Shown here: positions 475-18,856 of the stretch, one piece after another
How the letters are laid out: the number at the start of each line of letters is the position of its first letter
Numbering within the stretch: the stretch's first letter is position 1
Origin: a virus
Strand: one strand, 5' to 3'
IMG/VR virus record: IMGVR_UViG_3300023237_000012
Span: 1 to 64,000 of that record
Length of the DNA: 64,000 nt
Translations under genes and position numbers: made by a program
Notes under the pieces: model-generated
Databases searched by the model: none
Told to the model about the DNA's origin: nothing
The model's input: only the letters and a program-made list of their open reading frames with translations

Positions 475-3318
475 TTAAGCTTTTACTTTTACTTTAACAG
501 TTCCAGCTGTTGCTGCGTAAAATTGAGTTTGATCTAGACTGCCTGAAATAGCATCTTTATAATGAATGCCCATAAAACGCTTCCTACTATTAGTTTGTAC
601 AAATATAAACTTTTCATTAACTTTACCAAACCCAGCAACTAGTTCTTTTTCAATTGCATTAAAAGATTTTAGTGTTAACGTACTACCTGTGGATAAGATA
701 GTTTTTATTTTACTTAATGTTTTTGCATCAGTAAGATCACCCAAAATTTCTCCGCTTGAGTTAGATATTATCAGTTTATTGGTTGGTGATTCTTCAATAT
801 TAAAAGCTAATGCGGTGTGAATTTCAACAGGGTCAATACTTCTAACTTCCTTTACAAATTTTCCGAATTCTTGTCTTCCTGTTAAAGCTGCTATCTCAGA
901 TCCTAGTTTTGTTGATATGTCTAATTCTGGTAGTACATCTTTAAGGCCATCATAAAGAAGTTTAAGATTTGCTAATGTATGCTGAATAATAGATCTATGC
1001 TTTGCACCAGTCCTCCAATTATATAGCCAACCGTCTATAGACAGCTGAGCTTCTTTTAATTCCGCTTGATCTGATACAGCATGTTTATCATTATACAGCG
1101 TTAAATCAATATCTTGCGAGCCTCCACCAATACTGCAATTTTCTATAATATAAGCTAACATAATTTCACCTCTACCTATCCCAGTGACGTCAGCGCCTAA
1201 CTTTACTAATATATCTGCTGCGTTTTGGTCTCCTTTAAGATATTTTTCAACCTTCTTTATATCACTAGTATTAAAACTATTTAACTTAAGCCTACCGTCG
1301 TATGGTGCTTTACCTTTAAACAAACTCACATTGATTAAATCGTAAAGAGCATCTTTATCTTCTTTTTTATTAGACTGTGCCAAATACATATACTTCCTTT
1401 CACTTGCTTCAGTTATTAGCTCTTCTGATTCTGTCATTTCGGGGGTAAGAACATTCTGAAGAATTGAATACATGTCATGAATACTCTTTGGAGTCATTTT
1501 CTTGAAAGTAGACTCATCATCTAATTCAATTGCTGTCCTAACTTTAGAAGCAGACACATCGTCATCACCTCTTTTAATTTCATATCCTTTAAATTCTGGT
1601 TCAACATCTAAGTCTTTTCGATATTCTGGTTTGCTAATCATGCCTTCATATGCCTTCTTACGATCTGTTCCAAATCCCCATAACATTGGTTCGTAAGCTG
1701 GTCTTAACGTTGCATAAAGAGTATCAATAGCTGCATTAGGTACTGTGTACATAGCCTCTAAAAATGGATATTGCTTCTTCATCTTATTGAACATAACGTT
1801 CTGTTCATCTTCACTAAATGGACTCTTTTCAGGGTTTGGCTTTTTACCTCTTACAGTAAAGACTACTACTGGGAGTCCGTTTTGCTTATGTAGCTGTTCG
1901 AAGACTTTAACATGACCTAAAGTAAAAGGCTGAAATCGTCCGACGATCATATTGACTTTCTTCTTACCACGTTCTTTATATGGAACTGTTAGTGCTTCAC
2001 TTACTGCCGATAGATCAACTATATCAAGAGCTTGGAAGTCTTTAAAAGTTAATACTTTTTCTTCACTAATTGATTTGACTGGGTCTTCTTCTACCGTTTC
2101 GTTTACCTTTTTGAGCTTAAGGTAATCTTCAAATGTTTTGAATTTACCATCATCCTTAGATGTGCTGATACTGTTGAATTTATCTACCATTTTGTTAAAG
2201 TCTTCTATCACTGATGGTGTAAGTATTGCACCTGTTTTCTTTGGGTCTCTTTTCTTTCTTAACGATCCTAACATAACTTTGTATAGATCTTTAAGACTTT
2301 CTGAGCTTGATACTAATTTCTTTGTCTTTTCGTTTAATATTAAATCTGTGTTTAGATCAAACTCTGGTGCCGATGCAAAATCTGCTTTATTGAATGCTAT
2401 ACCTTCTAGGCTATCGCCCCGTTGAGCAACATATTCATTAAAAAGTAATGATACTAATTGAATATACCGTTCTTCACCATTACCCGTTAATGTATCACTT
2501 TTTGTGATTCCACGCTCTTCAATAAAAGCAAGCAAATCAAGCAGAATGATTTCGTTCATATCTGCTGGTGCTCGTCTCATATCAACTGGGACTTTCTCTT
2601 TCATTAAGAATTTAGTGTAAGGATCTATCATCCTAGCTGAGAATGATTTGCCACTTCCAGCTGTAATAAATTTAAAGATTAACGAATCTATAGGATTTGA
2701 TAAATTACCATGCAATGTAGTTGAAGTTGTATTAGGATTAAGAACTTGTAAGATATATTCAGCAAAAGATGCTGTACCAAATAGTTCTTCTTGATCCTCA
2801 GTAGGAATTCTTATAAATTCTTCGATCTTTGATTTTTGTTCAGGTGTTAAGTTACCAGAATAAAATGGTTGGAGTGCTGTTACAGTTAGATTAGCTGCCC
2901 AATCTTTTATTACTCTCGGATCATCTATAACTTTAGCTGTCTTTCCAGTTTCACCTCTTATGTGAATATGTGTAAGTACTAAATTATTCTCAGGAAGTTT
3001 CGTATAGCTTATAATACCAGGTTCGTTATGAACAAAATACTGAAAGCAAAATCTCCAGTTATTTGGAAGTTCTATTTTACTTGAAGCCAGTATATTCTTA
3101 ATATGTTGTATTGCTGGTTCATAATAAACCATAATCGTCCTATCTACTAAGTTAATAGGTTTTTGAGAGGTTCCTTTAAAAAACTGAAGTCTGTCTTTGG
3201 TTTGTTCAGTTGCAAAGGATGATCCAGATAACTTCTCAGTAACTATAACGTAGTCACTTAGTAAGTCGTCAATAAATCCTTGACCTGCATCTTTATATAT
3301 GTTATGAAGTTCTTTCAT
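475..3318 (-). CDS. Ligase-like / NMN-cytidylyltransferase-like / nuclease-like fusion protein
   Basis: 947 aa with three parts. Residues 20-235 resemble the nucleotidyl-ligase fold: candidate motif I TEKLSGSS (K29), later SLIFKF and ARMIDPYTK resembling motifs IV and V. Residues 455-605 are a clear adenylyl/cytidylyltransferase (NMNAT-type) domain: VGRFQPFTLGH near 459-469, WGFGTDR, and VSASKVR near 588-593 in place of ISxTxxR. Residues 640-947 are unassigned, but E718, D736/D738 and ELK (753-755) could form a PD-(D/E)XK nuclease site. LITE|AS at about 634-639, between parts two and three, matches the T4 prohead-protease consensus. There is no leader at the N-terminus, although the neighbours have one. 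Domain 2 is secure, domain 1 moderate, domain 3 speculative. A role in NAD, nucleotide or RNA-end chemistry is inferred. Confidence 0.7.
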   Translation of the reverse strand: MKELHNIYKDAGQGFIDDLLSDYVIVTEKLSGSSFATEQTKDRLQFFKGTSQKPINLVDRTIMVYYEPAIQHIKNILASSKIELPNNWRFCFQYFVHNEPGIISYTKLPENNLVLTHIHIRGETGKTAKVIDDPRVIKDWAANLTVTALQPFYSGNLTPEQKSKIEEFIRIPTEDQEELFGTASFAEYILQVLNPNTTSTTLHGNLSNPIDSLIFKFITAGSGKSFSARMIDPYTKFLMKEKVPVDMRRAPADMNEIILLDLLAFIEERGITKSDTLTGNGEERYIQLVSLLFNEYVAQRGDSLEGIAFNKADFASAPEFDLNTDLILNEKTKKLVSSSESLKDLYKVMLGSLRKKRDPKKTGAILTPSVIEDFNKMVDKFNSISTSKDDGKFKTFEDYLKLKKVNETVEEDPVKSISEEKVLTFKDFQALDIVDLSAVSEALTVPYKERGKKKVNMIVGRFQPFTLGHVKVFEQLHKQNGLPVVVFTVRGKKPNPEKSPFSEDEQNVMFNKMKKQYPFLEAMYTVPNAAIDTLYATLRPAYEPMLWGFGTDRKKAYEGMISKPEYRKDLDVEPEFKGYEIKRGDDDVSASKVRTAIELDDESTFKKMTPKSIHDMYSILQNVLTPEMTESEELITEASERKYMYLAQSNKKEDKDALYDLINVSLFKGKAPYDGRLKLNSFNTSDIKKVEKYLKGDQNAADILVKLGADVTGIGRGEIMLAYIIENCSIGGGSQDIDLTLYNDKHAVSDQAELKEAQLSIDGWLYNWRTGAKHRSIIQHTLANLKLLYDGLKDVLPELDISTKLGSEIAALTGRQEFGKFVKEVRSIDPVEIHTALAFNIEESPTNKLIISNSSGEILGDLTDAKTLSKIKTILSTGSTLTLKSFNAIEKELVAGFGKVNEKFIFVQTNSRKRFMGIHYKDAISGSLDQTQFYAATAGTVKVKVKA

Positions 3319-3321
3319 AGT

Positions 3322-3888
3322 TTATGTTCCACTAAAGTCTTTAAATTCTGTATCAGTTTTGAATAATTTCCCAAAGGCTTTAAATGCAAGTTTCTGCTCT
3401 GTCGATGAAAGTTTAGAATACAGATCACTTAGAGTTTTTTGATGTGCTTGACCGTTCTTATATGCTCTTTGATCATCTGCATAGTGCCAAGTGTTATCAT
3501 ATCCTTTTATTGATAGTAGATATTGATCAAGATCAGTTTCCCTAGCACTTAGAATTTTTCTTACTGTAGCTGCATCTTTCATCCTTTTCTTATTGAAGTA
3601 AACTTCCCAATCGCCTCTGAATCTTCCAGTTTTGTACAAATGAATAATGTCACCTGAATGTAAAGTAACTTCAAATTTTATACCTTTCTTATCGCTTGAT
3701 TGATCGACGATATTTACAATGCTTTCTTTTGCATCATCCCAATCTTTTGGGATCATATGTTGAACTGTAATTTCAGCATCTCTCTTTACTTCTTCTGGAG
3801 TAGCCCAAGTATCACCAGCTTGACCGTAGTCTAAGTAGGTTTGATACTTAGCTTCGAAGATTTTAAAACTGTCTATGTACTTTCCCAT
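3322..3888 (-). CDS. Unknown protein with capsid-targeting leader
   Basis: 188 aa, not recognised. It starts MGKYIDSFKIFE|AK, which fits the leader pattern with an IFE-A cleavage site at residues 10-13. The body is hydrophilic; residues 70-110 look beta-rich (FEVTLHSGDIIHLYKTGRF) and the rest mainly helical. It lies 3 bases upstream of the 947-aa gene in the direction of transcription, so the two are probably co-translated. A 7-bp hairpin and an AATAAATA run sit just before its start. Delivery in the capsid is inferred from the leader only. Confidence 0.75.
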   Translation of the reverse strand: MGKYIDSFKIFEAKYQTYLDYGQAGDTWATPEEVKRDAEITVQHMIPKDWDDAKESIVNIVDQSSDKKGIKFEVTLHSGDIIHLYKTGRFRGDWEVYFNKKRMKDAATVRKILSARETDLDQYLLSIKGYDNTWHYADDQRAYKNGQAHQKTLSDLYSKLSSTEQKLAFKAFGKLFKTDTEFKDFSGT

Positions 3889-3908
3889 CTGTTTGCATTT
3901 GTTTATTT

Positions 3909-3927
3909 ATTGACAAGTATTGTCAAT
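3909..3927 (-). promoter_or_regulatory. Short hairpin between two genes, with TATAAATA-like flank
   Basis: ATTGACA and TGTCAAT form a perfect 7-bp stem around a 5-base loop, overlapping the stop codon at 3923. On the minus strand it is followed by AATAAATAAAC, which resembles a T4 late -10 box (TATAAATA), about 10 bases before the ATG at 3888. There is no T-run, so it is a poor terminator. It could be a processing or promoter element. Confidence 0.3.
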
Positions 3928-4105
3928 CATGTCCGTGCCACCAATCATCATCTGATAAAACATCAAGATTATGCTGAGCATGCTCTTTGTCTTCAAATAT
4001 TTCATCTAACACAAAATCGATACTTTCTAAGAACTCATCCTTCGTTTTGGCTATTTTAAGTTTGTCGTAAACTGAGTGGTATTTGTTTTGTTGTGATTGT
4101 GTCAT
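3923..4105 (-). CDS. Small acidic protein, unknown
   Basis: 60 aa, not recognised. It begins MTQSQQNKYHSVYDKLK, is rich in Asp/Glu, and ends DDDWWHGHD. It has no leader motif. It starts one base after the stop of the nucleotidyltransferase gene (TGA-T-ATG), which supports translational coupling and a real gene. Confidence 0.55.
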   Translation of the reverse strand: MTQSQQNKYHSVYDKLKIAKTKDEFLESIDFVLDEIFEDKEHAQHNLDVLSDDDWWHGHD

Positions 4106-4106
4106 A

Positions 4107-4991
4107 TCATCCTACATCTGATGGTAATGGTAAACCAGAATGTGTCATTCTCATTTTAAATTCGTCAAGAATAGCATCTACTTTTTCTGGAAATTTAAAC
4201 GATCCTGATTCTAATAATGCTTTCAATCCTTCGTATGTATTAACATCCTTTGGTTTTGCACCGTTGAATATCATGTCTACTACTTCTTGTGGTTCTCTTG
4301 TGATCTCTTTATCAAAGTCTCTTAATAGTTTCGCGGTTTTAATCAATCCTTTCTTACCTTGAAATGTTTTTCTAATTTGAACTATTCCTTGGTTCAATCT
4401 AATTATTCTGGCTTCGTATTCTTTAGTTGCTCCTTCTGGAGTTTTACTTAATGTCTTGCCAAAGGATTGTCCTATTATTGACATTAATAAAATATTACGA
4501 TATGCTCCTTTATATTTCGATTCTCCGGTTCTGAAGTCAGGTGATTCGTAAATAAACTTAGACCATTCCATATCAGTTGAAAGCATTAAGTCAACTTGAC
4601 CAACACCATTCTTAATGTCACCGTCAATTGGAGCCGCTATACTTACTTGGCCAAAACCTGCGGCCATTTTAGTTTCGTAGCCTAATTTCTTGAGTGTACT
4701 GTTTAGTTCAATTAAAACGTTCTGAAGTGAAACATCTAAATACCCAGCAACTCGGTCTGCTGAAATTGCAATATCAATGTCACCGCTTGTGTCTCCTGGC
4801 AATTTCTTCCCGGCACTTCCAATAACTGCAGCATCGTCACCCATCCCAGATAGTCCAATCTTAGGAAAAACGTTTTTCTCTAACCACTTTAAAGTTCCAG
4901 TAACTTGATCTTGTTGAAATGGCTGAGCATCTTCTACAGAATTACCGCTTTCAGTTAATATGAATTCTTCAAATAATTTAATGTATGCCAT
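4107..4991 (-). CDS. Polymerase-beta-type nucleotidyltransferase with capsid-targeting leader
   Basis: 294 aa. The leader MAYIKLFEEFILTE|S has a probable cleavage site after E14. The body carries the minimal nucleotidyltransferase signature: GS (58-59), then D71-x-D73 in the string GDIDIAI, and a third acidic residue D134 in GQVDLML. This is the metal-binding triad of the pol-beta superfamily, which transfers a nucleotide to RNA, protein or small molecules. The substrate cannot be told from sequence. It follows the ligase-like gene (4997-6280) after 5 bases, and both carry the leader, so the pair probably acts together. The start follows an AAACGAC leader shared with two other leader genes. 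Fold fairly sure, substrate unknown. Confidence 0.7.
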   Translation of the reverse strand: MAYIKLFEEFILTESGNSVEDAQPFQQDQVTGTLKWLEKNVFPKIGLSGMGDDAAVIGSAGKKLPGDTSGDIDIAISADRVAGYLDVSLQNVLIELNSTLKKLGYETKMAAGFGQVSIAAPIDGDIKNGVGQVDLMLSTDMEWSKFIYESPDFRTGESKYKGAYRNILLMSIIGQSFGKTLSKTPEGATKEYEARIIRLNQGIVQIRKTFQGKKGLIKTAKLLRDFDKEITREPQEVVDMIFNGAKPKDVNTYEGLKALLESGSFKFPEKVDAILDEFKMRMTHSGLPLPSDVG

Positions 4992-4996
4992 GTCGT

Positions 4997-6280
4997 TTAT
5001 TTTTTAAAAGCTAAAATTGACCGAATCTGGTGAAGTGGGCTGAAAATTCCAGTATATTTGTACGGCTTACCTTTATACACAAATGTAATACCTTCTGTTG
5101 GAACTATACTTTCAATTCCGCCAGCAGCTGTAAGTCTTAATAATTCCGCTTCGAGTTTTTTAACATCTTCAGCGTCACCACCTGTCTTAATACTATTAAT
5201 AACACCTTCGACTTCTTTTTTCATTGCCTGCGTAGCGGCTGTAGGATTAGCTGATAGGAACACTGATACGTTTTTCATCATTTCAGTTCCTACCTCTAAA
5301 AATATTCCTTCAAGAGGTGCATAAATTTTACGCTTTAACCTTTTATAGTCTTTCTTCTCTAAATCAATGAACCATTGAGCGTCATCTCCAAGTTCATGTT
5401 TAAGAGTTGGTATAGTATACGACTTATCAACTCCTCCGATTCGTCTAGCAAGACCTTCTACAGCATCACTTGGTATACTAACTTTAGCTTTTTTGGCTTC
5501 GTCCTGAAGTACTTTAACGGCACTGCCCATAACGTAGTCTCTAATAGTACTATTTAGATTAGTACCACTTTCTGCCATGATTCTCTTCAGTTCATTATTA
5601 TAATAAGATGCTCTTTTCTTAGTATTTGGAAATGGCATGATAGAAATATCAACTGGACCTCTTACGTAATAGGTTGCTTGAGCTGCTACGTTAGCATCAT
5701 TGATAAGATTGCCGATTTTTCGTGCAGCAGTTTTATCTTCTCCTATAACATTAGCAGCTTCATCATATTCAACTAAACCATGAAATACTAAAATATTCTG
5801 ACCGTATGGGATAGTGTTTTGAGTTACGGGGGTTATTACTTCAACACTTGCAAATTTTCTACCACTATCGAATAAGTCTAACTTATCTTTCTCTGATAGT
5901 GCACCGATAGAAGCTGCTAAATCTGTCATTGCAGTATTATATGCAATTTCAATATCCCCTCGACCTTTAAATAAATCAGCCATGCCCTGAGCGGTAAGTG
6001 CATTTTCGCCAGCATTTCTTAAGTGGCTCTTATTCCTCGCAGCAATTAACCGCCCATCTTTCCAAGAGATCATAATGTTTTGACCATCAACCTTCTCCTG
6101 TACAAAATTATCTGGACCGAAGGCACCTTCAATAGTTGCATCGATCATATCTTGTACGTCTCTCATAGTTAGGTCGAGATCCTCAAACGGATGTGCTAAG
6201 TGCCCATATGCTCCACCTTCTAACAACAATGGCTGACTATCATTAGTCAGCCATTGTTCAAATAACAGTATATGTCTCAT
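4997..6280 (-). CDS. RNA/DNA-ligase-like nucleotidyltransferase with capsid-targeting leader
   Basis: 427 aa. It starts MRHILLFEQWL, with a protease-type site LLLE|GG at 18-22. It then shows the covalent nucleotidyltransferase motifs of ligases and capping enzymes: motif I EKVDGQN (lysine K63 would carry AMP), motif III-like FASVEVITP (E147), motif IV-like EGITF (E396) and a motif V-like KYTG (K408). The spacing between III and IV is unusually long, with a helical insert of about 200 residues. RNA ligase is the best guess, but DNA end-sealing is possible. It sits 9 bases downstream of the acidic leader protein and 5 bases upstream of the nucleotidyltransferase, in one transcription unit. Action in the host cell right after injection is inferred. 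Confidence 0.65.
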   Translation of the reverse strand: MRHILLFEQWLTNDSQPLLLEGGAYGHLAHPFEDLDLTMRDVQDMIDATIEGAFGPDNFVQEKVDGQNIMISWKDGRLIAARNKSHLRNAGENALTAQGMADLFKGRGDIEIAYNTAMTDLAASIGALSEKDKLDLFDSGRKFASVEVITPVTQNTIPYGQNILVFHGLVEYDEAANVIGEDKTAARKIGNLINDANVAAQATYYVRGPVDISIMPFPNTKKRASYYNNELKRIMAESGTNLNSTIRDYVMGSAVKVLQDEAKKAKVSIPSDAVEGLARRIGGVDKSYTIPTLKHELGDDAQWFIDLEKKDYKRLKRKIYAPLEGIFLEVGTEMMKNVSVFLSANPTAATQAMKKEVEGVINSIKTGGDAEDVKKLEAELLRLTAAGGIESIVPTEGITFVYKGKPYKYTGIFSPLHQIRSILAFKK

Positions 6281-6289
6281 TTGGTATTT

Positions 6290-7285
6290 TTATTGTTTTC
6301 CGCTTGACAATGCACCGATCATTGCACCGTAATCGTCTTTGTATTTTTTCTTAAGATCAGCGATAACTTTATTTGCAACTTTCTCATCGAAATCATCTGG
6401 ATGAGCTTTCATCAAGACAGCATTTGCATATTCTTCAAAATCAGCGTCAGTTTTAATATCAGCTTCTTTTAGCATTGCTTCAGATACAACGACAGTTCCT
6501 TGAATATCTGAATCATCTGTTGAATCTTCAGGCTTAATTACAATCTCTTGGTGTTTAGTAACTAATTCTCCATCGTCATCGAGTTCTTTAGTTATACTTA
6601 ATGGATTAGCACGTGCTTCGATATCTTCTGCTGCATCCTCTTTAAGTTTAGCGGCTTTTTCTTCATCCTCAATAGATGCAAATTCGCTATTGTCTTTTCC
6701 GTCTGCAACTGGTAGTGCATCGTCTTCTTCTTCTTCATCATCACGATAGCTAATGTTCTTATTAACTGTTTCTTCGCTTTCTTTAATGAATTCTTCAAAT
6801 GACATAATCCGTGATCTTGGAATTACCGTTGCATCGCTCGTATCTTCTGGACTATCTGGAACTTTCCCAGCTACTTCTTGATCAGTAGTGACTAATTCTT
6901 CGCCTTCTTCATCGGCAACTTTTTCAGGTTCCCCTTTAACTTTAACTTCGTCTTCAATGTCTTCAGCTGCATCTTCGGCAACTTCTACATCATTATCTCC
7001 ACCTACTACTCCGTCCTCTTCTTTTTCGCCAGCTTTATTAGCAAGTGATTTCTCTTCTCCTTTTTTCTTCAGATTAGCTTCGATGTCTTCAACAGCGTCT
7101 TCACTTACATCAGCATGTTTAGGTAGTTCTTTGAATAAAGCTTCAAGTTTAATCAATATAGCTTTTTCTTTCTTAATTTCTTCTAAACTACCAAACCCTA
7201 ATTTCTTAACAATTTCGAGAATGTCTGCTCCCCTACTTTTAGATTCGTTTATAGTTTCAGAGAACTTCTTAATTCTTCTTTCCAT
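6290..7285 (-). CDS. Very acidic repeat protein with two capsid-targeting leaders (core/scaffold-like)
   Basis: 331 aa, strongly acidic. It begins MERRIKKFSETINE|S (site after E14). A second leader-like segment, MSFEEFIKE|SE, lies near residue 160. The body has duplicated units: DAxEDIE occurs three times, and GEELVTTDQEV...PEDTSD is echoed later by GELVTKHQEI...PEDSTD, so the protein looks like an internal tandem duplication. Extreme acidity and protease sites recall T4 prohead core proteins such as gp67 and gp22, which are cleaved and leave acidic peptides in the head, but there is no clear homology. A candidate late promoter lies 18 bases before the ATG. It is the first gene after uvsW. 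Confidence 0.65.
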   Translation of the reverse strand: MERRIKKFSETINESKSRGADILEIVKKLGFGSLEEIKKEKAILIKLEALFKELPKHADVSEDAVEDIEANLKKKGEEKSLANKAGEKEEDGVVGGDNDVEVAEDAAEDIEDEVKVKGEPEKVADEEGEELVTTDQEVAGKVPDSPEDTSDATVIPRSRIMSFEEFIKESEETVNKNISYRDDEEEEDDALPVADGKDNSEFASIEDEEKAAKLKEDAAEDIEARANPLSITKELDDDGELVTKHQEIVIKPEDSTDDSDIQGTVVVSEAMLKEADIKTDADFEEYANAVLMKAHPDDFDEKVANKVIADLKKKYKDDYGAMIGALSSGKQ

Positions 7286-7303
7286 GTTTTTCTTTATTTG
7301 ATT

Positions 7304-7311
7304 TATATATC
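7304..7311 (-). promoter_or_regulatory. Candidate late promoter (GATATATA)
   Basis: Minus-strand GATATATAAATC, 18 bases before the ATG at 7285. It resembles the T4 late box TATAAATA and matches boxes before other virion genes in this window. Confidence 0.55.
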
Positions 7312-7324
7312 TATAGTTTTACTC

Positions 7325-8827
7325 TTAAAATTTGACGGTCTGAACATCATACTTAAATTGTTCCTCCTCGTAGATCTTCCTTCGTTCAGCTCCATGCTTA
7401 TACATATAGTTTTTCCAATTCAAATCTTCTCCAGTATATCGGAAATCATCTATAAAGTCGTAGATTTTAACCAATTCCTTAGAGTGATGTTTTCTTAGAC
7501 CTCTACCAATTGACTGTCTAATGATAACTTCACTCTTGAAGCTTTCAGTAAAAAAAATGTTATGGATGTTCTTAATAGAAATTCCAGTACTAAAAGTTCC
7601 ATAGCTTGCTACGATGATCACATCATCATTCTGCTCCATCCTTGCTTTGAACTCTTCCCTCATATCACCACTAACACTACCATCTACATAATAGACCTTC
7701 TTATCAGTAATGTTTCGTAATTGTCTATATAGTGCTTCACCATAATCTATCTTATGAAATAACACCAACGAATTTGAATGTGACTTATTGATTACTTTCG
7801 TAACGAAGTTAAGTCGCTTTTCGTTTTGGTTAATAAAGTTCTTTTCAAGTGTAAATAACTCTCTTCGTTGTTTTGGGTTCTTAGATAAGAATGCGAATGC
7901 TTCTTTCTGCTCATCTGAAGCATAGTCCATTGTAATCTGTAAAACCTTACAGTTTGCAATATGACCTTCATCTTGAAGATGTTTTGCTTTTACTTGGGTT
8001 ACTAAGGGACCCATAGCAGACATTAATGCTAGTCGGTCAACAGTTCCTTTCTTTGGAATGGTTCCACTTAAACCAAAGCGATAATCACAATGCCAGCATT
8101 TATCCATTATAGTTTGAATTGACTTGCTTTTCGCTTTGTGGGTTTCGTCGACTAATACTGCATCAAATTGTGAGAAGTATTCTTCATCATAGTTTACCAG
8201 TGATTGATAAGTACCTACAACAATATTACTACTCTTACGAATCTCAGCACCCGAATAGATCTGCTGAGTTTTTATGCTTAATTTACCAGCGTTATATTGT
8301 TCAAAGTCACCTGTTGCCTGAATCACAAGACTTACATTTGGTACGATCATTAATATTTTCTTCTTACCTAAAACTTCCATAAGATAGCCTATGACCATAA
8401 ATGAAATTAATGTCTTTCCTGCAGAAGTTGCTAATTCAGCTAAACATCTTTTGTATTTTAGTATTTTGAATGCAGCATCGATCTGATAATCTCTCGGAGT
8501 GATTTCTCGTCCTTCGAAGAATTTTAATGCCCAAGCTTCAAACTCATCTACTTTGATAGTGTCATTGAAAATACGAGTAATTCCAACCATTGTTAATTGG
8601 AAATCATATTCCTTACATATATCGGCTACTTCTTTCCATAGGCCAGCTGGGATGAGGTTTTTCTTAACAAATGAGATCTTGCCATCCCACACACCACGCT
8701 TCACAAGTGGATTAAACCTCCAGCCATCGATGCGTTTAGTTAAACTTGCTTTGAGTTGGTCATATTCTAACTCTGTACAAGAAGTAATAACTAAGAATTT
8801 GTTATTTTCACTTAATGTTAATTGCAT
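7325..8827 (-). CDS. uvsW: UvsW-type DNA helicase
   Basis: 500 aa, matching T4 UvsW (503 aa). SF2 helicase motifs are clear: Q-motif region PRDYQIDAA (111-119), Walker A ATSAGKT (133-139), Walker B VDETHKAK (226-233), SGT motif III (~254-256), and motif VI QSIGRGLRKH near 440. UvsW unwinds branched DNA, reverses forks and removes R-loops, moving T4 from origin-dependent to recombination-dependent replication. The UvsY-like gene lies just upstream, an arrangement also seen near uvsW in T4. The N-terminal ~100 residues would be the DNA-binding domain. High confidence. Confidence 0.92.
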   Translation of the reverse strand: MQLTLSENNKFLVITSCTELEYDQLKASLTKRIDGWRFNPLVKRGVWDGKISFVKKNLIPAGLWKEVADICKEYDFQLTMVGITRIFNDTIKVDEFEAWALKFFEGREITPRDYQIDAAFKILKYKRCLAELATSAGKTLISFMVIGYLMEVLGKKKILMIVPNVSLVIQATGDFEQYNAGKLSIKTQQIYSGAEIRKSSNIVVGTYQSLVNYDEEYFSQFDAVLVDETHKAKSKSIQTIMDKCWHCDYRFGLSGTIPKKGTVDRLALMSAMGPLVTQVKAKHLQDEGHIANCKVLQITMDYASDEQKEAFAFLSKNPKQRRELFTLEKNFINQNEKRLNFVTKVINKSHSNSLVLFHKIDYGEALYRQLRNITDKKVYYVDGSVSGDMREEFKARMEQNDDVIIVASYGTFSTGISIKNIHNIFFTESFKSEVIIRQSIGRGLRKHHSKELVKIYDFIDDFRYTGEDLNWKNYMYKHGAERRKIYEEEQFKYDVQTVKF

Positions 8828-9601: not shown

Positions 9602-10671
9602 AGGTACACTATATCCAGATTCGTAGTTGTAAAATAAGAATCTAAATTGTCAAGGCAACCCTTTCTATATTTATATTCATACTTCACTAAATCGTTTAAG
9701 TCTTTGATAGATTTACTTGATATGTTATAATCTTCTAATAGCTTTTTCCACATAAAGACACTCTGTCCAATCTGTGCTTTCTCTATCATTTTTCGTTTAC
9801 CAGCAATATCATTATCGAAGAAGTATCGAACATGTGGAATATCATCAAACTCTGAAATCTTTTTCTTAACTCCAGTAATACCTAAAGAGTTGCGCATAAA
9901 CATTGCATCTATAGGTCCTTCAAATACAGTGAAGGTTCTTGACATATCTACCTCAAGTATACCAAAGATCATTGAGATTTTATTTAAGCTATTAAGATGA
10001 TCCTCAGGAAGATCAATTTTAAGTTTTAGCCTTTCGTATATTCTCTCTATGTTGTAAGTTCTATACTTAGGACCTATGCCATCTAATGATCTAACTTGAA
10101 ATCCAATAATCTTACCGCTTGGAGAGAAATTATAAATGTAAAGATCTTTCTTTCGTGGATCGTATGCAAACTTATTTGCCTTCTGGTGCAAAAGTCTACT
10201 CTTAAGATATGGATATACTCGGTGTGTCTGTTCGTTAATTGGATATGCATTAAAAGCAATACCAATTTGTTCGTATGTTAAACCGTACTTATCAATTTCA
10301 TCAAAAAGATAAAAATCTAAGGTTTCTTGTAACTGTATTTTAAAACGATGATCTTTAATGTAGTTAATTACATTTACTCGTTCTTCTCCCTCGAAGTTTT
10401 TATCGAAATGCTCTAAGAAGTAATCTACAGTTTCATGGACATTGCAGTTATAGCAATGGTAATAAAGATCATTCCAATAAATGTTACCTCGTTTCTTTCG
10501 TTCGTCATCTGCAGAATCTCCACAATATGGACAAGCAAAGTTTAAACGATCTTTACTATCTTCAGTCCTTCTTTTCTCACCGACTGGGTGTGATATGTAA
10601 AGGATCCCAGTCACCTTATCGATGATCTGGGATCTCATATTTACATCAAGCTTTACAGCTTCTTCAACCAT
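9598..10671 (-). CDS. 61: DnaG-type primase (T4 gp61-like)
   Basis: 357 aa, close to T4 gp61 (342). The N-terminal zinc ribbon has four cysteines: CPYC (47-50) and CYNC (73-76). The central part has a Toprim-like catalytic core with VFEGPIDAMF (acidic residue after the first strand) and FFDNDIAGKRK (DxD). Primase makes short RNA primers for lagging-strand synthesis and works with the gp41 helicase, which is not in this window. It lies 3 bases downstream of gp32 and overlaps the next gene by ATGA, so single-strand binding protein, primase and UvsY are produced together. Confidence 0.85.
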   Translation of the reverse strand: MVEEAVKLDVNMRSQIIDKVTGILYISHPVGEKRRTEDSKDRLNFACPYCGDSADDERKKRGNIYWNDLYYHCYNCNVHETVDYFLEHFDKNFEGEERVNVINYIKDHRFKIQLQETLDFYLFDEIDKYGLTYEQIGIAFNAYPINEQTHRVYPYLKSRLLHQKANKFAYDPRKKDLYIYNFSPSGKIIGFQVRSLDGIGPKYRTYNIERIYERLKLKIDLPEDHLNSLNKISMIFGILEVDMSRTFTVFEGPIDAMFMRNSLGITGVKKKISEFDDIPHVRYFFDNDIAGKRKMIEKAQIGQSVFMWKKLLEDYNISSKSIKDLNDLVKYEYKYRKGCLDNLDSYFTTTNLDIVYL

Positions 10672-10674
10672 TTC

Positions 10675-11610
10675 TTATAGGTCTAATCCATCAAGAAAGT
10701 CATCTAATTTTTCATCAGCGTCTACTGGCGCTTCTGCAGTTGCAGTTTCTGTCTGTGCTGCCACAGTTTCAGTTGCTTTTGTTGCTGCTGCTTCGGTCTT
10801 CATATTACCGCTTGGCTTTGTGCTCATAGTTTTCTGTGTTATAGCTGCTATTGAACTTCCAGGCGATGCGAACATTGAAAGAACGCCATGTACACGATTT
10901 GCTTGGTCAGTAGTCCAAGGTGTATAATCCCAACTATCTAATTTTGGAGCAGCATTCAAGTAAGCAAGAATTGCTGTTCTGCTTTCAGAACTATCAGATA
11001 CAGCTTCACCTTCAAGAATCATTGGACTAGTTTTACCCATGAACTTACAAGAGTCATAATTTGGATAACCACCTTTCTTAGAGATGTTAAGTTCAAAGTT
11101 CTTACCATCAAACGGATCAAATACTTGTACTGGTTCATCGAACTTAGGATTTAACTCATCGTCAATCTTAAGCTTAATCTTATATCCAAATTTGAATATT
11201 TTAAGTTGACCTTCAAGTGCTGGATTTTGCTTGTCAGTTACGATTTGAACTAACGCGTAATATACTTCTTTACGTTTCAATTCTTCAGACATTTTATTGT
11301 CTACAGCTGAATCACTGTTACGAAGTCTGAAGAACATGTCTTGAATAATACACTTGTCACCAATAGTTGACGGAGAGTCAACGTAGAAACCCTTTCCATC
11401 AGAGTCAGTTAACCAATAAACATACTTGCGTATGAATGGTTTTCTTGGATTAGATGGGTTTGGTAGGAATCTAATCTGAGAACTATAAGTTCCATCAGAT
11501 CCTTGTTCTGCTTTAGGTGCATATAGATCGCTACCACCTTTTTTTTCGTCTCCAGTGTCGAGATCACTTACTCCAACACTAAAAATATCGAATTCTTTTT
11601 CATTTGCCAT
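10675..11610 (-). CDS. 32: Single-stranded DNA-binding protein (T4 gp32-like)
   Basis: 311 aa (T4 gp32 is 301). Shared landmarks: IRFLPNPSNPRKPF, KGFYVDSPSTIGDKC, a central GQLKIFKFGYKI followed by PFDGKNFEL and YPNYDSCKF, and an acidic tail DEKLDDFLDGLDL used for protein contacts. It coats single-stranded DNA in replication, recombination and repair. The T4 zinc site (one His plus CxxC) is not conserved: only one Cys remains in that region, so this version is probably zinc-free. An Ala/Thr-rich linker precedes the tail. It heads an operon with primase and UvsY; a TATATATT box lies 143 bases upstream. Confidence 0.88.
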   Translation of the reverse strand: MANEKEFDIFSVGVSDLDTGDEKKGGSDLYAPKAEQGSDGTYSSQIRFLPNPSNPRKPFIRKYVYWLTDSDGKGFYVDSPSTIGDKCIIQDMFFRLRNSDSAVDNKMSEELKRKEVYYALVQIVTDKQNPALEGQLKIFKFGYKIKLKIDDELNPKFDEPVQVFDPFDGKNFELNISKKGGYPNYDSCKFMGKTSPMILEGEAVSDSSESRTAILAYLNAAPKLDSWDYTPWTTDQANRVHGVLSMFASPGSSIAAITQKTMSTKPSGNMKTEAAATKATETVAAQTETATAEAPVDADEKLDDFLDGLDL

Positions 11611-11768
11611 TTTTACTTGCCTTATTTTGTTTTACTTATTAATTTACATAAGCTCCACAATACTTGTCTCTTAGCTGCCTAGAATTTCTGCCAATTAACT
11701 TGCCTCGTTTTGCCTAATTTGAAAGGGCCTACCTTCCACTAGTTATATATTGATACTCTTGGTTTGTT

Positions 11769-12056
11769 TTAACTTATAATAACATCTAATGCTATTATAC
11801 CGCTAATTATCTTCTCTTCAACCAAAATATATTCAACATCGTTATAGTTAAGAACTTGAGCTCCCGACCAGTGATATGCAACTTTCATCCCAAGTTTAAA
11901 TCTATCTGTACATTTAGTACCTATAGAGACGATCGTTCCAGCATAAGGTGGGATATTACCACTATCAGTGCTTGGTGTGACTAGATATATTGAACCTACC
12001 TTCTCAGGGGCCTTATCTTTAAGAATGAGAATCTTTTTTCCTATTATTGTGATCAT
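11769..12056 (-). CDS. GroES / gp31-like co-chaperonin
   Basis: 95 aa, the size of GroES. The domain order fits: N-terminal strand ITIIGKKILILKDKA, a mobile-loop region TPSTDSGNIPPY, the core strand AGTIVSIG, GMKVAYHWSG, and the closing strand EYILVEEKIISGI. In T4, gp31 replaces GroES to cap GroEL while folding the major capsid protein gp23, so a phage-specific co-chaperonin is expected here. It stands alone between the RuvC-like gene and gp32, with ~190 bases of its own upstream sequence, suggesting independent control. Confidence 0.75.
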   Translation of the reverse strand: MITIIGKKILILKDKAPEKVGSIYLVTPSTDSGNIPPYAGTIVSIGTKCTDRFKLGMKVAYHWSGAQVLNYNDVEYILVEEKIISGIIALDVIIS

Positions 12057-12244
12057 AATGAAACAAGTTGTGAAATCTGCGGTATAATGTTTACTAGATG
12101 TTACGAAGGAAAAGAGTCTAGTTATTTCTAGTTATTGATTTTTGGTAAACAAAGATCTTACAATTATATAACTATCTATAAGTCTTTTAAGATTCATTCT
12201 TTTCCTTATGATTATTAGACATCATTATTCTTAATGTAGTTTAC

Positions 12245-12901
12245 TTAATCATTACTATTCAGTTTAGCCTCTAAACATTTTACAATAAAATAGCTATCTA
12301 CAATGTCATCTACTGGTTTACTTATCTTCTTAGGATCATAAGTCTTATCCTGAATCCACTGCCAAAACGGATTCTGTTCTAAGATAGGATCTTTTAAGAC
12401 ATTACTTTTAAAAGCATTTACCATATACAGCTTATCACAATTGCCTTTCCCTGCCAGTTTCTTTACTGCAGATGGTTGAAAAATGTAAAATGATCTCAGC
12501 CCGTAAGAAGAGATTAATTTCTGTCTTAAATAAGTATTGTACATTATCATATCGATAAAGCTGTTACCTTTAGATCCGTATGAAAATCCTTCTATGGCAA
12601 AATCGCTTATGTCGTACTTATCTTTTAAAGTCGTATCTATTAGAGTTGCAATATCTGAAGCGTCTTTCTGCTTATTTAATTCCTTCTCTCGGAAATCATC
12701 GTTTGCAACGTCACGCTTGTACATTACTCCAGTGATTCTATTAGTACTCATTAATTCGTCATGAATTAAAAATGCTTTCTTGATAGGACTCTTGAATGAA
12801 TCTTTAGGGTAATTGAAAAATGAAATGAATTCGTAAGCCCCGTCTACAAAGATACATGCTGCTGGACTATTAAGAGAAAAATCTATACCGACTAATGCCA
12901 A
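12245..12901 (-). CDS. RuvC-like Holliday-junction resolvase
   Basis: 218 aa. RNase H-like fold with the RuvC acidic set: D7 in GIDFSLNSPA, E104 in FAIEGFSYGSKG, and D198/D199/D202 in KPVDDIVDSYF. RuvC-type enzymes cut four-way junctions so branched replication intermediates can be packaged. T4 uses the unrelated endonuclease VII (gp49), so this looks like a functional replacement. It is followed by 188 bases without a clear gene and then the GroES-like gene. The extra ~50 residues compared with bacterial RuvC lie in the region 55-95. Confidence 0.7.
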   Translation of the reverse strand: MALVGIDFSLNSPAACIFVDGAYEFISFFNYPKDSFKSPIKKAFLIHDELMSTNRITGVMYKRDVANDDFREKELNKQKDASDIATLIDTTLKDKYDISDFAIEGFSYGSKGNSFIDMIMYNTYLRQKLISSYGLRSFYIFQPSAVKKLAGKGNCDKLYMVNAFKSNVLKDPILEQNPFWQWIQDKTYDPKKISKPVDDIVDSYFIVKCLEAKLNSND

Positions 12902-12923
12902 TGTTGTTATTCTTTAAATATTA

Positions 12924-13226
12924 TTACCAAGTACCAAATTCTTTATGCCAGTATAAAGCAGAGAATGGATCTTTAGCGTGTTTTGAATTACGTCCACCCA
13001 TTCTACTCCAGAAATTATCCTGTCTATCTTTATCTTTATGCTGTGTAAAGTCTTCCATGTTAGAATCTCCACCATGAACCACTTTATATTTGTCTCCTTT
13101 CTTAGCCAAAACCATCCACTTTTTAGCTTTGTCGGACGATTTCCGCTTTACACCAACTTTAGTAAAGCCTTTCTTACGATAGCGTTCTGGTATTTCTGAT
13201 TCTTTTAAGAATTCTGAAAAATTCAT
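12924..13226 (-). CDS. Conserved small phage protein with capsid-targeting leader
   Basis: 100 aa. It starts MNFSEFLKE|SE, a short leader with the site after E9. The rest is a compact conserved domain I recognise from hypothetical proteins of marine T4-like phages: KKWMVLAKKGDKYKVVHGG, then MEDFTQHKD..R..NFW.RMGG, ending PFSALYWHKEFGTW. Function is unknown; the many Lys, Arg and His suggest nucleic-acid contact. It lies 5 bases downstream of another leader gene. Confidence 0.72.
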   Translation of the reverse strand: MNFSEFLKESEIPERYRKKGFTKVGVKRKSSDKAKKWMVLAKKGDKYKVVHGGDSNMEDFTQHKDKDRQDNFWSRMGGRNSKHAKDPFSALYWHKEFGTW

Positions 13227-13231
13227 TAGGC

Positions 13232-14047
13232 TTATTCTTTAAGTTTTGCTATCAATTGAATTGTATAGAATTTAGCATCTTGCCAATCATCATTAGCATC
13301 TTCCCATTCTTCATATTCTTCACTATCCTCATCATAGTCTTCGTTATCTTCTACCATTTCATAATCTTCTAGAGTATTTACTGCTCTTTCGATATTATCA
13401 CCAATTTCGGTAAGTGCTTTAGGATTTTTAGAGTTTGCTGATAGTTCATCTACTACGCCTTGAACATTATCAAAGTCAAAATCATCAGCACCTTGAGTTT
13501 CAAGATCTGCTAATAGATTAAACAATGTTTCTGCCGATGTACCTTTCTTAGGCTTCCAGTTAGCATATTTCTTTACATAATTTGCTGCCTCATTAACAGA
13601 ATCAAGATTTTCTGCCATTGAACGCATGAGCAGCTCGGGATATCTAACAGAATCTTCGACAATACTTTGAACATGGTAGTAGTACGTATTATTTAATTCC
13701 TCTTCATACTGTTCAGGATAGAGTGGAAAACCTTGTTGCGTTCGTTGCTTCTTAGTTGTTTCGATTCCCTTCCACTTCTTTTGAAGTATTACGGCTCCCG
13801 CTCCAGTTAGTGGATATGCATTCTTACGTTGAAGATGCTCGTTCTTTTTGTACCACGCCTTCTGCTTCTTAGCGAGTCGCGCAGTAAATTTTCCGTGCCT
13901 TGCAAGAGTAAGCAGGTCAAAGAGATATTCTTGAACTGTACCCTTTTGAGGAGTCCAGCCAGCATATTCTTTATTCCACGACCCTGGCTCAACTCCAGTT
14001 CGAGTTTGCTCGTTTAGAAATTGTGAAAATGTTGAAATGTGTTTCAT
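13232..14047 (-). CDS. Two-repeat protein with capsid-targeting leader
   Basis: 271 aa. The leader MKHISTFSQFLNE|Q has its site after E13. Two copies of one motif follow: KEYAGWTPQKGTVQEYLFDLL near 26-46 and KKYANWKPKKGTSAETLFNLL near 159-179. The linker is basic (KKQKAWYKKN), while the C-terminus is very acidic (DYDEDSEEYEEWEDANDDW). No known family. A candidate late promoter lies 21 bases upstream of the ATG. Probably an internal head protein. Confidence 0.72.
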   Translation of the reverse strand: MKHISTFSQFLNEQTRTGVEPGSWNKEYAGWTPQKGTVQEYLFDLLTLARHGKFTARLAKKQKAWYKKNEHLQRKNAYPLTGAGAVILQKKWKGIETTKKQRTQQGFPLYPEQYEEELNNTYYYHVQSIVEDSVRYPELLMRSMAENLDSVNEAANYVKKYANWKPKKGTSAETLFNLLADLETQGADDFDFDNVQGVVDELSANSKNPKALTEIGDNIERAVNTLEDYEMVEDNEDYDEDSEEYEEWEDANDDWQDAKFYTIQLIAKLKE

Positions 14048-14068
14048 AATAATTTGTTTTGTTTTTTG

Positions 14069-14076
14069 TATATATC
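14069..14076 (-). promoter_or_regulatory. Candidate late promoter (GATATATA)
   Basis: Minus-strand GATATATACAAAA, 21 bases before the ATG at 14047, in the gap between two leader genes. Confidence 0.5.
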
Positions 14077-14083
14077 TAAGACT

Positions 14084-14437
14084 CTATAGTTTTTTTCCAA
14101 GTGCTGAGCCTAAAGCAGCACCTACTAATCTACTCGTAAGAAGGTCATAAATCACACCCTTCTCAATACCTAATACTTTCGCAATTAATTTACCGATAGT
14201 TTTACCTAAAGCAAAACCAGTTAGTCCACCAAATATAGATCCAAATAAACCTTCGTTAATTACTTCTTGCATTGCTGCTTCCAAGTCTTGACCATTAGCA
14301 TTTGCAGTTAATAGCTTTTCAACGACTAAATCAATAGCTACATCTTGATCTTCTGTAAGTTCAACAGATTCTTGAAGTGCTCTTTGAAATAATACATCTT
14401 CATCAGTCTCTAATAAGTATTCTTTGTAGGTCTTCAT
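14084..14437 (-). CDS. Glycine-rich protein with T4 internal-protein-type leader
   Basis: 117 aa. It starts MKTYKEYLLE|T, almost the T4 IPIII leader MKTYQEFIAE|A and with the same 10-residue spacing to the cut site. A second possible site is in VELTE. Residues 65-117 are hydrophobic and Gly-rich (GLFGSIFGGLTGFALGKTIGK, LVGAALGSALGKKL), like a glycine-zipper membrane segment. A packaged, membrane-active protein is an attractive inference: it could insert in the host envelope during injection. A promoter-like box ends only 4 bases before the ATG. Confidence 0.72.
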   Translation of the reverse strand: MKTYKEYLLETDEDVLFQRALQESVELTEDQDVAIDLVVEKLLTANANGQDLEAAMQEVINEGLFGSIFGGLTGFALGKTIGKLIAKVLGIEKGVIYDLLTSRLVGAALGSALGKKL

Positions 14438-14441
14438 GTAT

Positions 14442-14449
14442 TATATATC
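14442..14449 (-). promoter_or_regulatory. Candidate late promoter very close to a start codon
   Basis: Minus-strand GATATATAATAC, ending 4 bases before the ATG at 14437. If used like a T4 late promoter, the transcript would begin at or inside the start codon, i.e. be leaderless. Confidence 0.4.
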
Positions 14450-14451
14450 AA

Positions 14452-15009
14452 CTATGCTTTATAGCCGTATTTTATTTCGAGAATGTTATACTTAAAGTTA
14501 AGATCAAACGTATTAAACTCAACTGTATTATTACTAAAGTTAAGGTCTAAGCCACTGATTCCTATGAATAACATTTCCTTCATTTGAACATTTACAAATA
14601 CATTACCTTCTCCGTCAAATAATTGTATTCCTGCACCTTCTGGGATCCAGGGCTTATCTCCACCAAGTCCATAATAATACTCAAAAAGTTCAAGTGCCAT
14701 CCAGTAGTTAAAAAATCCATCAAAAGATTGCATAGTTACTGTAAGATCTTTTTGGTATAGTCGTTGAGTAGGTTCAGAAGATCTAAAGCTTCTTTCGTAT
14801 CCTGGCGCATCTAATTGAGACACTGGATCAAACGATGGTCCTGGTAAGTTCAACGATTGTATGCCATAATTGAAAGCATCTATAGGCTCCTTAATCATAC
14901 TACCTGGCATCTTATTAAGTACAGGTTTGTACTTATCTACAATCGACTGTGGAATAAAGTTCCTTGGAAAATCGAATTTGAAGTGATCATTTTTTGAACT
15001 TAAAAACAT
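14452..15009 (-). CDS. Tail-tube-fold virion protein (gp19/gp54-like)
   Basis: 185 aa. Features of the tail-tube fold: LNLPGPSFDPV near 53-63, the segment TVTMQSFDGFFNYWMALELFEYYYG (90-114, where the tube fold has its long strand and helix), and a C-terminal strand pair MLFIGISGLDLNFSNN. The tube itself would normally lie next to the sheath gene, which is absent here, so it may be a baseplate or tail-end member of the same family. It overlaps the next gene by one base (TAATG) and probably forms a unit with the two virion genes to its right. Confidence 0.45.
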   Translation of the reverse strand: MFLSSKNDHFKFDFPRNFIPQSIVDKYKPVLNKMPGSMIKEPIDAFNYGIQSLNLPGPSFDPVSQLDAPGYERSFRSSEPTQRLYQKDLTVTMQSFDGFFNYWMALELFEYYYGLGGDKPWIPEGAGIQLFDGEGNVFVNVQMKEMLFIGISGLDLNFSNNTVEFNTFDLNFKYNILEIKYGYKA

Positions 15010-15842
15010 TATATCATTGTTCTTTGAAGTGCAGCAGCTGCTACTACAACTGTTGCTTTATCTGTCTTACCTTTAACCTTACCTTGAACAACAGCAGTCT
15101 GCCCAGCTTTATTCTGAGCATCTTGTGCTAATTTCTGAGCACTTCGTGCAGCAATTTGAAGTGCTTCGATAGTACTATCTTGGCCTTCGTTCTCTGTAGT
15201 AAGTTCAGTTATAGTGTTTGACATTTGTTGATTTGAAGCTTTTAATGCAGAGATAGTAATATTTTGATCTGCAACTTGTTGAGCTAAATCATTTCTCTCT
15301 ATTTTAAGTGCTGCTGTTTCTACTTTTAATTTAGCAACTTCCTCACTATATTTTAGTGTTAAGTCTTCTATTTGCGATGTAAGAGTTTTCCTAGCATCAT
15401 CTGTAAGAGATAGAAATTTCCCAGTGTATAAAACAGTTTCATCTGAAGTATCACCTTCAGGGCTTACGTCTTGAGTTGATATGTAAAAGTTATCGTTATT
15501 TAATTTGAGTATCTTCTTGCTATCCTCAGCACTTATTCTGAATATGACTTGGCCTTGAGATAAATCTAAATCCTTTACGTTAGTATAGTACGCAATTCGT
15601 ACCTCATCTTTTTCCCCAATAAATGATATGTAAACATTACCAACATTAGAAAGATCAATCGGTGTATCTTCACCACTCGTATCTTCGTATAATGTAAAAA
15701 TGAAATAATCATCAAATGGACTTATTCGTATTGAACCATCACCTTGTGGTAGTGGTTGTTCATTAACTGACGTAGCTTTAAACTCTTTATAAGTTTCAGC
15801 TTTCTGTCTGTCAAGTGATATGTTAGTTTCAATACTTGCCAT
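15009..15842 (-). CDS. Virion protein with beta N-terminus and coiled-coil stalk
   Basis: 277 aa. Residues ~35-145 look beta-rich (IRISPFDDYFIFTLYED, VYISFIGEKDEVRIAYYT). Residues ~150-250 are a long coiled coil (TSQIEDLTLKYSEEVAKLKV and onward), ending in an Ala/Val-rich tail. This head-plus-stalk design suits a trimeric fibre or whisker piece. It overlaps both neighbours by one base. Family not recognised; a tail or neck appendage is inferred from position. Confidence 0.55.
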   Translation of the reverse strand: MASIETNISLDRQKAETYKEFKATSVNEQPLPQGDGSIRISPFDDYFIFTLYEDTSGEDTPIDLSNVGNVYISFIGEKDEVRIAYYTNVKDLDLSQGQVIFRISAEDSKKILKLNNDNFYISTQDVSPEGDTSDETVLYTGKFLSLTDDARKTLTSQIEDLTLKYSEEVAKLKVETAALKIERNDLAQQVADQNITISALKASNQQMSNTITELTTENEGQDSTIEALQIAARSAQKLAQDAQNKAGQTAVVQGKVKGKTDKATVVVAAAALQRTMI

Positions 15843-17197: not shown

Positions 17198-17206
17198 ATT
17201 TGCTTC

Positions 17207-17440
17207 TTATTTTTTGAAGTAAGCAACGAAATCATCCATTGCATCTTTAAAGTCTATTGACGGATTAGCTCCTCCATCAGTATTATCATCTATGATTTTA
17301 AAGATATCATTATATGAGAATTTAAAATCAGTTGTCTTTCTTAGAAATTTAACTATGTCCTTTGCAACTTCTTCTATAGTGTCAAAATTTCCACGGTTAA
17401 AGCTAACCATTTTGTTTTCAAGTTGGTTAAGCTCTCCCAT
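17207..17440 (-). CDS. Small acidic helical protein
   Basis: 77 aa, not recognised. It begins MGELNQLENKMVSFNRGNFD and reads as a compact helical domain ending DAMDDFVAYFKK. It starts 2 bases after the leader gene at 17443-17733, implying coupled translation. An alternative start at M11 is possible. Confidence 0.55.
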   Translation of the reverse strand: MGELNQLENKMVSFNRGNFDTIEEVAKDIVKFLRKTTDFKFSYNDIFKIIDDNTDGGANPSIDFKDAMDDFVAYFKK

Positions 17441-17442
17441 CT

Positions 17443-17733: not shown

Positions 17734-17756
17734 GCTGTATTTTTATCTATTTTTAT

Positions 17757-18832: not shown

Positions 18833-18856
18833 TATTATTTATGTTAAGATATTAAA

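Follow-up and report, generated by a model that had tools for sequence, protein, structure and literature searches.

A linked set of nucleotidyl-transfer proteins with capsid-targeting-type leaders in a viral genome: a candidate virion-delivered end-processing module

Injected enzymes, repair pairs of a ligase and a nucleotidyltransferase, and virion-borne NMNAT-like proteins are all of known kinds in phages. Here we describe an island at positions 475 to 6280 of a 64,000-nucleotide stretch (the window), which covers most of the 70,642-base virus record IMGVR_UViG_3300023237_000012. The proteins of interest are P0003, a ligase-like protein of 427 residues (4997 to 6280), P0002, a Pol-beta-superfamily nucleotidyltransferase of the family-X-like type with 294 residues (4107 to 4991), and P0001, a protein of 947 residues with ligase-like, adenylyltransferase and nuclease-like domains (475 to 3318). 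Every gene of the island is encoded on the minus strand. We see about an even chance that the island is a virion-delivered module for processing nucleic-acid ends (cut, fill, seal), whose likely task is to repair the incoming genome where it is broken or gapped.

The island shares features with several described systems. Capsid-targeting sequences of phage T4 are N-terminal propeptides of 10-20 residues that are removed after Glu, and Alt is cut at ITE and LTE (PMC5694885). Like the T4 internal head proteins and Alt, the module has propeptides of this type and would form part of a diverse, arrayed head cargo injected with the DNA; whereas the known T4 cargo consists of an ADP-ribosyltransferase and restriction inhibitors, the cargo here would be linked nucleotidyl-transfer enzymes. 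Sets of RlaP with Rnl1 or Rnl2 (PMC7824862) likewise place a Pol-beta-superfamily nucleotidyltransferase gene beside a KxDG ligase gene. The module differs in giving no PF10127 or PF09414 matches and in adding an adenylyltransferase, nuclease-like parts and packaging leaders. In cyanophages, an unknown or nuclease-like gene, DUF6267 (PF19782) and a “cytitidyltransferase” stand in a row in the phrog_1462 neighbourhood. DUF6267 is a KWDG protein with a profile link to ligases, and this neighbourhood also shares the leader and a virion-detected adenylyltransferase; in contrast to the present island, its genes are annotated as unknown or cytidyltransferase, and Pol-beta is fused to DUF6267 in some marine contigs only (the class of contig L071). 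Ku-LigD non-homologous end joining and Pol beta-ligase base-excision repair also combine end-filling polymerase, ligase and nuclease activities. The comparison is functional only, as the module belongs to unrelated families and lacks Ku, an AEP polymerase and a DNA-ligase OB domain. Finally, phage salvage of nicotinamide adenine dinucleotide (NAD+) by NadV with NadM or NadR uses an adenylyltransferase of the same HIGH superfamily. Several complete module-bearing genomes lack NadV, however, and the module shows a ligase fusion instead of a Nudix or kinase fusion.

The original prediction regarded a capsid-delivered set of this kind as new. This stands in part: virion-borne NMNAT-like “cytidylyltransferases” had already been reported in cyanophages (PMC10665884, PMC3037559), but we found no description of the set as a system. 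The open-access literature searched yielded no paper containing “DUF6267” or “cytitidyltransferase” and none on the four-part set, and two reviews of NAD and RNA-repair systems in phages are silent on the module in the passages searched. In that literature we found neither the linked, leader-bearing set nor any uniting of DUF6267 with the cyanophage cytidyltransferases and an unnamed Pol-beta family.

Active sites and linkage of the set

Judged by its motifs, P0003 is a member of the covalent KxDG nucleotidyltransferase (DNA/RNA ligase) superfamily. Sixteen homologues, with identity down to 30%, invariably keep K63, D65 and G66 of motif I (EKVDG, 6083 to 6097), E147 of motif III, E396-G397 of motif IV and K408-x-T410-G411 of motif V (YKxTG), and the motif set is recognisable in further lineages. 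The AlphaFold model has a predicted local distance difference test (pLDDT) score of 79, with low values in the leader, and lacks an OB-fold domain; it carries a large helical insertion that separates motif III from motif IV. When the model was compared with the PDB using Foldseek, the 19 best matches were all ligases (probability 0.98-0.80, E values 5e-3 to 1e-2), led by Aquifex DNA ligase, archaeal RNA ligase, T4 Rnl1 and then Rnl2. The modest E values and low global template modelling scores arise because the insertion separates the motifs. P0003 gave no match to Pfam RNA_ligase (PF09414), its relative in Agrobacterium phage Atu_ph07 alone giving a sub-threshold match. The window encodes a distinct, canonical ATP-dependent DNA ligase at 60247-61560 (phrog_114, E 9e-69); P0003 is therefore not the replicative ligase of the phage. 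Cellular homologues of P0003 are confined to four contigs in binned genomes, and these are read as phage fragments because contigs L120-L122 carry phage-type ligase-adenylyltransferase fusions.

P0002 is a member of the Pol-beta nucleotidyltransferase superfamily by both motif and fold. Its catalytic residues G58-S59 and D71-x-D73 (4773 to 4820) and the third aspartate D134 (4590-4592) are invariant in 23 homologues, at identities down to 22%. The model has a pLDDT of 90.9, disorder being confined to residues 1-16 of the leader, and its best Foldseek matches are DNA polymerases beta and mu (E 2e-4, probability 1.0), with terminal transferase (TdT) and Cid1 behind. P0002 belongs to a Pol-beta family that has no Pfam match, and did not match the RlaP profile (PF10127) at E<=1; Lak-B6, Atu_ph07 and contig L056 have RlaP genes at other positions. 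As the profiles match neither P0002 nor P0003, membership in the RlaP and canonical RNA ligase families was rejected. Weak Pfam matches (Terminase_6C in P0002, ART in contig L018) were judged to be chance. Both P0003 and P0002 are predicted, with high confidence, to be active enzymes.

The N-terminal ligase-like domain of P0001 (P1N, 2044 to 3318) keeps K29 in TEKLSGSS, but Q and D replace the glutamates of motifs III and IV, respectively, and R replaces the motif V lysine, so that three of four catalytic positions are lost. K29 itself is kept in close marine relatives and replaced by N in contig L009 and by D or N in huge-phage relatives. The relative in L056 is the sole one with all motifs (EKLDG, HFEYF, EGIV, SK), which makes P1N a ligase relative, probably degraded in the window copy. 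By profile it is linked to a ligase group of jumbo phages (hhalign E 5e-6), and it is through this group that P1N is connected with P0003, the direct profile comparison being not significant. P1N probably acts as a scaffold or in binding. Searches of the PDB with P0003, P0002 and P1N, as single sequences or as profiles, found no match; only folds helped.

The second domain of P0001 (1399 to 1983) is an adenylyltransferase of the NMNAT/PPAT type (PF01467, 1.2e-6), with GRFQPFTLGH at 1912-1941 and SASKVR later. The residues G-R-F-x-P...G-H and S...R are invariant in 13 homologues. It carries the NMNAT (NadM/archaeal) signatures GRFxPxHxGH and ISxTxxR, in the window as TxGH and VSASKVR. Profile matches to phosphopantetheine adenylyltransferase (PPAT; 3otw, 2.8e-13) and archaeal NMNAT (1f9a, 1.8e-12) are equally near, and the matches to NCBIfam NMNAT profiles fall below the cut-offs, so that NMNAT is not favoured over PPAT. 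The domain originally called NMNAT-like is thus a sound adenylyltransferase whose profile cannot separate the two.

The C-terminal third of P0001 (475 to 1383), which was not part of the original prediction, resembles a PD-(D/E)XK nuclease. The core pattern E...D...(D/E)xK appears in the window as GRGE718...D736-I-D738...E753-L-K755, in contig L002 as GRGE followed by DVSIKGKKFEVK, and in Vibrio phage Va1 as YEIK. BLAST aligned the domain with Va1_167 at 27.6% identity over 145 residues (E 5e-6); a Pfam search found no match. Nuclease-like domains of Xanthomonas phage X1 and Pseudomonas phage PA5oct, of L018 and of cyanophages have no profile link to that of the window and are tied to it by motif and position only.

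Four nucleotidyl-transfer sites had been predicted from the sequence, and all the reading frames and motifs concerned are in place. Those of P0003, P0002 and the adenylyltransferase are conserved beyond chance and show no degenerate residues, and the expected folds are not missing, although the fold matches of P0003 are modest; the K29 site is doubtful and its domain partly degenerate.

Conservation of the gene set in related phages, which the original prediction named as a check, is strong. Among 50 non-redundant loci of the P0002 family, 39 have a ligase relative within 6 kilobases and 15 of these an adenylyltransferase too, as counted with profiles whose members include some of the 50 loci. 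Marine relatives show the fixed order uvsY, uvsW, acidic protein, ligase, P1N and a 107-residue protein fused to the adenylyltransferase, and contigs L053 and L054 carry ligase, adenylyltransferase, Pol-beta and P1N genes in a contiguous run. Consecutive Pol-beta, nuclease-like, ligase and adenylyltransferase genes are found in phage X1 and Stenotrophomonas phage BUCT608. Va1 joins ligase and adenylyltransferase in a single protein flanked by Pol-beta and nuclease-like genes; the Pol-beta relation of this group has a profile E value of 3e-10. Ligase is paired with Pol-beta in PA5oct, Sinorhizobium phage Phosso and Atu_ph07. Fusions link Pol-beta with ligase (L109, L071), ligase with adenylyltransferase (Mel-JY01 L010, L005, L011, L120-L122, Va1) and P1N with adenylyltransferase (window, L009, L056). 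The independent fusions of ligase with Pol-beta and with adenylyltransferase indicate that the parts work together. In the window, cyanophages, BUCT608, Phosso, Atu_ph07 and PA5oct, the module adjoins genes for primase, helicase, UvsX, UvsY, UvsW or SSB.

Leaders and probable packaging

The capsid leaders predicted on P0003 and P0002 were both confirmed, and their form recurs in homologues. P0003 begins MRHILLFEQWL..LLLE/GG (the slash marks the predicted cut); its leader is MRHILLFEQWLTNDSQPLLLE (6218 to 6280), followed by GGAYGHL, and the pattern KLFEQWL...(L/F)xE/GG is kept in homologues at 30-37% identity. The leader of P0002 is MAYIKLFEEFILTE (4950 to 4991), followed by SGNS. Both take the form of T4 propeptides, with 10-20 N-terminal residues and a prohead-protease-type xxE end. 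Leaderless homologues of P0002 start with MGGN, MGGK or MSG, exactly where the leader-bearing ones are predicted to be cut (VE/GGN, NE/GGN, TE/SGN). This coincidence is the strongest evidence for packaging. Cyanophage copies carry the leaders MKSYKEFLSE/A, MKKFSAFLSE/A and MKSFTSFFTE/A, and 10 of the 12 records that bear the module encode an S77 (T4-type) prohead protease.

Leader-like N-termini occur in 10 of 65 window genes, whereas 500 shuffles of the N-termini gave 1.4 +/- 1.1 and at most 7; this statistic is optimistic because the pattern was picked after inspection, though the leaders do recur in homologues. P0001 contains a further prohead-protease-like site, VSE/A, absent from the original prediction, at Glu441 (1996 to 1998) ahead of the adenylyltransferase. 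In contigs L019 and L023 it reads INE/A, the alignment being SAVSEALTVPYKE with TAPINEALKVPHKE, and the site (SE/A or NE/A) is retained even where the upstream partner differs. A leader-like stretch, KVLTFKDFQ (2032 to 2058), aligns with KVLDYNNFI and the C-terminal LLTYSQFL of relatives. In P1N relatives such as that at L053 8885-10147, the leader-like LLTYSQFLEKDI stands at the C-terminus, which suggests a C-terminal capsid-targeting signal.

Mass spectrometry of virions has detected a cytidylyltransferase in cyanophages S-CREM2 (PMC10665884) and S-SM1 (PMC3037559). In the PA5oct record, the Pol-beta homologue and its neighbours are marked as structural proteins from electrospray ionisation tandem mass spectrometry. 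Overall, the module proteins are likely to be packaged in the head.

Other genes of the window and its relatives carry leaders. Proteins at 12924-13226, 13232-14047, 14084-14437, 17443-17733 and 43025-44044 are probable internal head proteins, and the one at 14084 begins MKTYKEYLLE, close to the cyanophage leaders. The 132-residue protein at 44640-45038 has two tandem leader-like stretches, and both come with a protease-like site of their own (MKHLDNFKIFEG...IPLFEEFLNES). In the 294-kilobase contig L003, approximately ten genes bearing leaders of the type MKNIPTFEDFVNES surround the ligase and adenylyltransferase (9941-21025), forming a probable island of internal head proteins.

Proposed function and its alternatives

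The enzyme families, the intact active-site residues in three domains, the conservation and linkage of the set, and the leaders with their protease-like sites come directly from the computation. On this basis, we infer the following steps. The leaders would load the proteins into the prohead during assembly, the prohead protease would free them, and they would be injected with the DNA. The PD-(D/E)XK-like domain might then trim or cut ends, P0002 fill or extend nucleotides at ends or gaps, and P0003 form a lysine-AMP intermediate and seal the ends. The adenylyltransferase may supply or recycle an adenylylated donor; this could be NAD+, provided that it is used by the ligase, or a different activated phosphate. 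The likely task is repair before phage gene expression of damage from the virion stage or from cuts by host nucleases. An end-processing role for the module is, in itself, moderately probable.

DNA is only tentatively regarded as the main substrate. It is slightly favoured over RNA because the primase, helicase and UvsX/UvsY/UvsW neighbours are steady and because the same genomes encode RlaP and canonical RNA ligases at other sites; the likeness of P0003 to Rnl1 would fit an RNA substrate.

Several points weigh against a packaged DNA end-processing module. For P0003, Foldseek gives no E value better than 4.7e-3, which is weak, and the DNA ligases come no nearer to it than T4 RNA ligase 1. The putative nuclease assignment depends on a motif pattern and one weak BLAST match. 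Homologues in Lak, Phosso, Atu_ph07, X1, BUCT608 and Va1 are leaderless, so packaging through a leader is not universal. The virion mass spectrometry comes from more distant relatives of the window phage. Since the PA5oct list also includes ribonucleotide reductase and the S-CREM2 authors caution about co-purification (PMC10665884), presence in such data is no proof of packaging. No T4-type late promoter (TATAAATA) precedes the cassette genes, nor is the window enriched in this motif. We also know of no pathway that accounts for an NMNAT/PPAT-type enzyme in an end-repair set.

Among the alternatives, a packaged RNA-repair set survives best, though we consider it unlikely. Comparable to RlaP with Rnl1 or Rnl2, its Pol-beta enzyme would restore lost nucleotides and its ligase would rejoin tRNAs or other RNAs that defence nucleases of the host cleave early in infection. 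The pairing of Pol-beta with a KxDG ligase matches the arrangement set out for RlaP with RNA ligases (PMC7824862), the best fold matches of P0003 include T4 Rnl1/Rnl2 and archaeal RNA ligases, P0002 also matches the RNA uridylyltransferase Cid1, and the ligases of L056 and Phosso give weak Pfam RNA_ligase matches. However, the module genes give no above-cut-off match to RlaP (PF10127) or RNA_ligase (PF09414), while true genes of both families lie elsewhere in some of the same genomes, which shows that a standard RNA-repair set and the module coexist. In addition, the cassette yielded no kinase/phosphatase of the kind usual in RNA-repair sets, a tRNA search of the window found none, and the neighbours are DNA replication and recombination genes.

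It is improbable that the proteins serve in the prohead core or bind DNA, with enzyme folds that are recruited relics in which catalysis is not needed. P1N is degraded in several lineages, the adenylyltransferase motifs are degraded in Va1 and Mel-JY01, and an internal-protein leader places proteins in the scaffold core. Against this, P0003, P0002 and most adenylyltransferases keep their invariant active-site residues though the remainder diverges to 22-30% identity. We give a similarly low standing to ordinary repair enzymes made during infection, whose N-terminal stretches would not be packaging signals. The position beside uvsW, uvsY and primase and the leaderless homologues of many jumbo phages fit such enzymes; they do not fit the conserved leader with a protease-like site exactly where leaderless homologues begin, the ten leader genes of the window and the array of approximately ten in L003, or the published detection in cyanophage virions of adenylyltransferases whose relatives bear the leader.

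Recovery of NAD+ after NAD-depleting defence, in which an NMNAT domain rebuilds NAD+ from nicotinamide mononucleotide and the other parts are incidental, is very improbable and was rejected as the general, shared role, one of those proposed earlier: the domain resembles archaeal NMNAT and phages have known NAD-restoring pathways (PMC9503650), but it matches PPAT equally well, its fusion partners are ligases and not NAD enzymes, and NadV (PF04095), reported in the same source to be always carried by NadM-bearing phages, is absent from the complete module-bearing genomes Mel-JY01, S-WAM1, PA5oct and LR756508.

The end-processing module, if real, would have wider implications. Virion-carried enzymes act ahead of phage gene expression, so that the survival of a damaged or attacked genome in the first minutes would depend on a delivered end-processing kit. 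A single explanation would then cover families common in marine T4-like phages: DUF6267, phrog_1462, the phrog_395/3041 “cytidyltransferases” and the Pol-beta family without a Pfam match. That this amounts to an undescribed, widespread system is possible but doubtful; T4-like phages of cyanobacteria, proteobacteria and other hosts would inject a break-repair machine of nuclease, family-X-like polymerase, ligase and donor-supplying or -recycling adenylyltransferase that mends the genome before expression.

Neighbouring genes and further observations

The window phage is T4-like, as indicated by the gene order of the island and by baseplate and head-tail genes elsewhere in the window. The order is SSB, primase, UvsY, UvsW, acidic protein, P0003, P0002, a small open reading frame (ORF), a 188-residue ORF, P0001 and a 107-residue ORF. 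The acidic protein (331 residues, 6290 to 7285) has the leader MERRIKKFSETINE, cut before S, and always lies upstream of the ligase in the marine clade. The small ORF within the cassette (60 residues, 3923 to 4105) has no leader and is 64% identical in L002. The 188-residue protein (3322 to 3888) has the leader MGKYIDSFKIFE, cut before A, and the basic 107-residue protein (122 to 445) the leader MEHIKSLDEFLLE; relatives fuse the latter to the adenylyltransferase (L019 10804-11925, L023 11098-12474).

A near-identity search of a phage collection with the window found nothing close at the DNA level; the nearest relatives are marine metagenomic contigs and huge phages. The sister contig L001 is >99% identical to the window and has two extra ORFs of approximately 830 base pairs (11313-12140 and 7191-8024). 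The first, GIY-YIG-like and homing-endonuclease-like, separates the ligase gene from the Pol-beta gene; the second, Vsr/PD-(D/E)XK-like, lies within uvsW. Elsewhere in the window, the phage encodes a J-domain (DnaJ-like) protein at 62682-63506, recognised from its sequence, the phrog matches having no assigned function. Among tail and structural genes, a sulfotransferase-like gene (53531-54349, PRSGSTLL) adjoins a glycosyltransferase-like gene (54349-55233, GGLGKH), a pair possibly involved in virion or surface modification.

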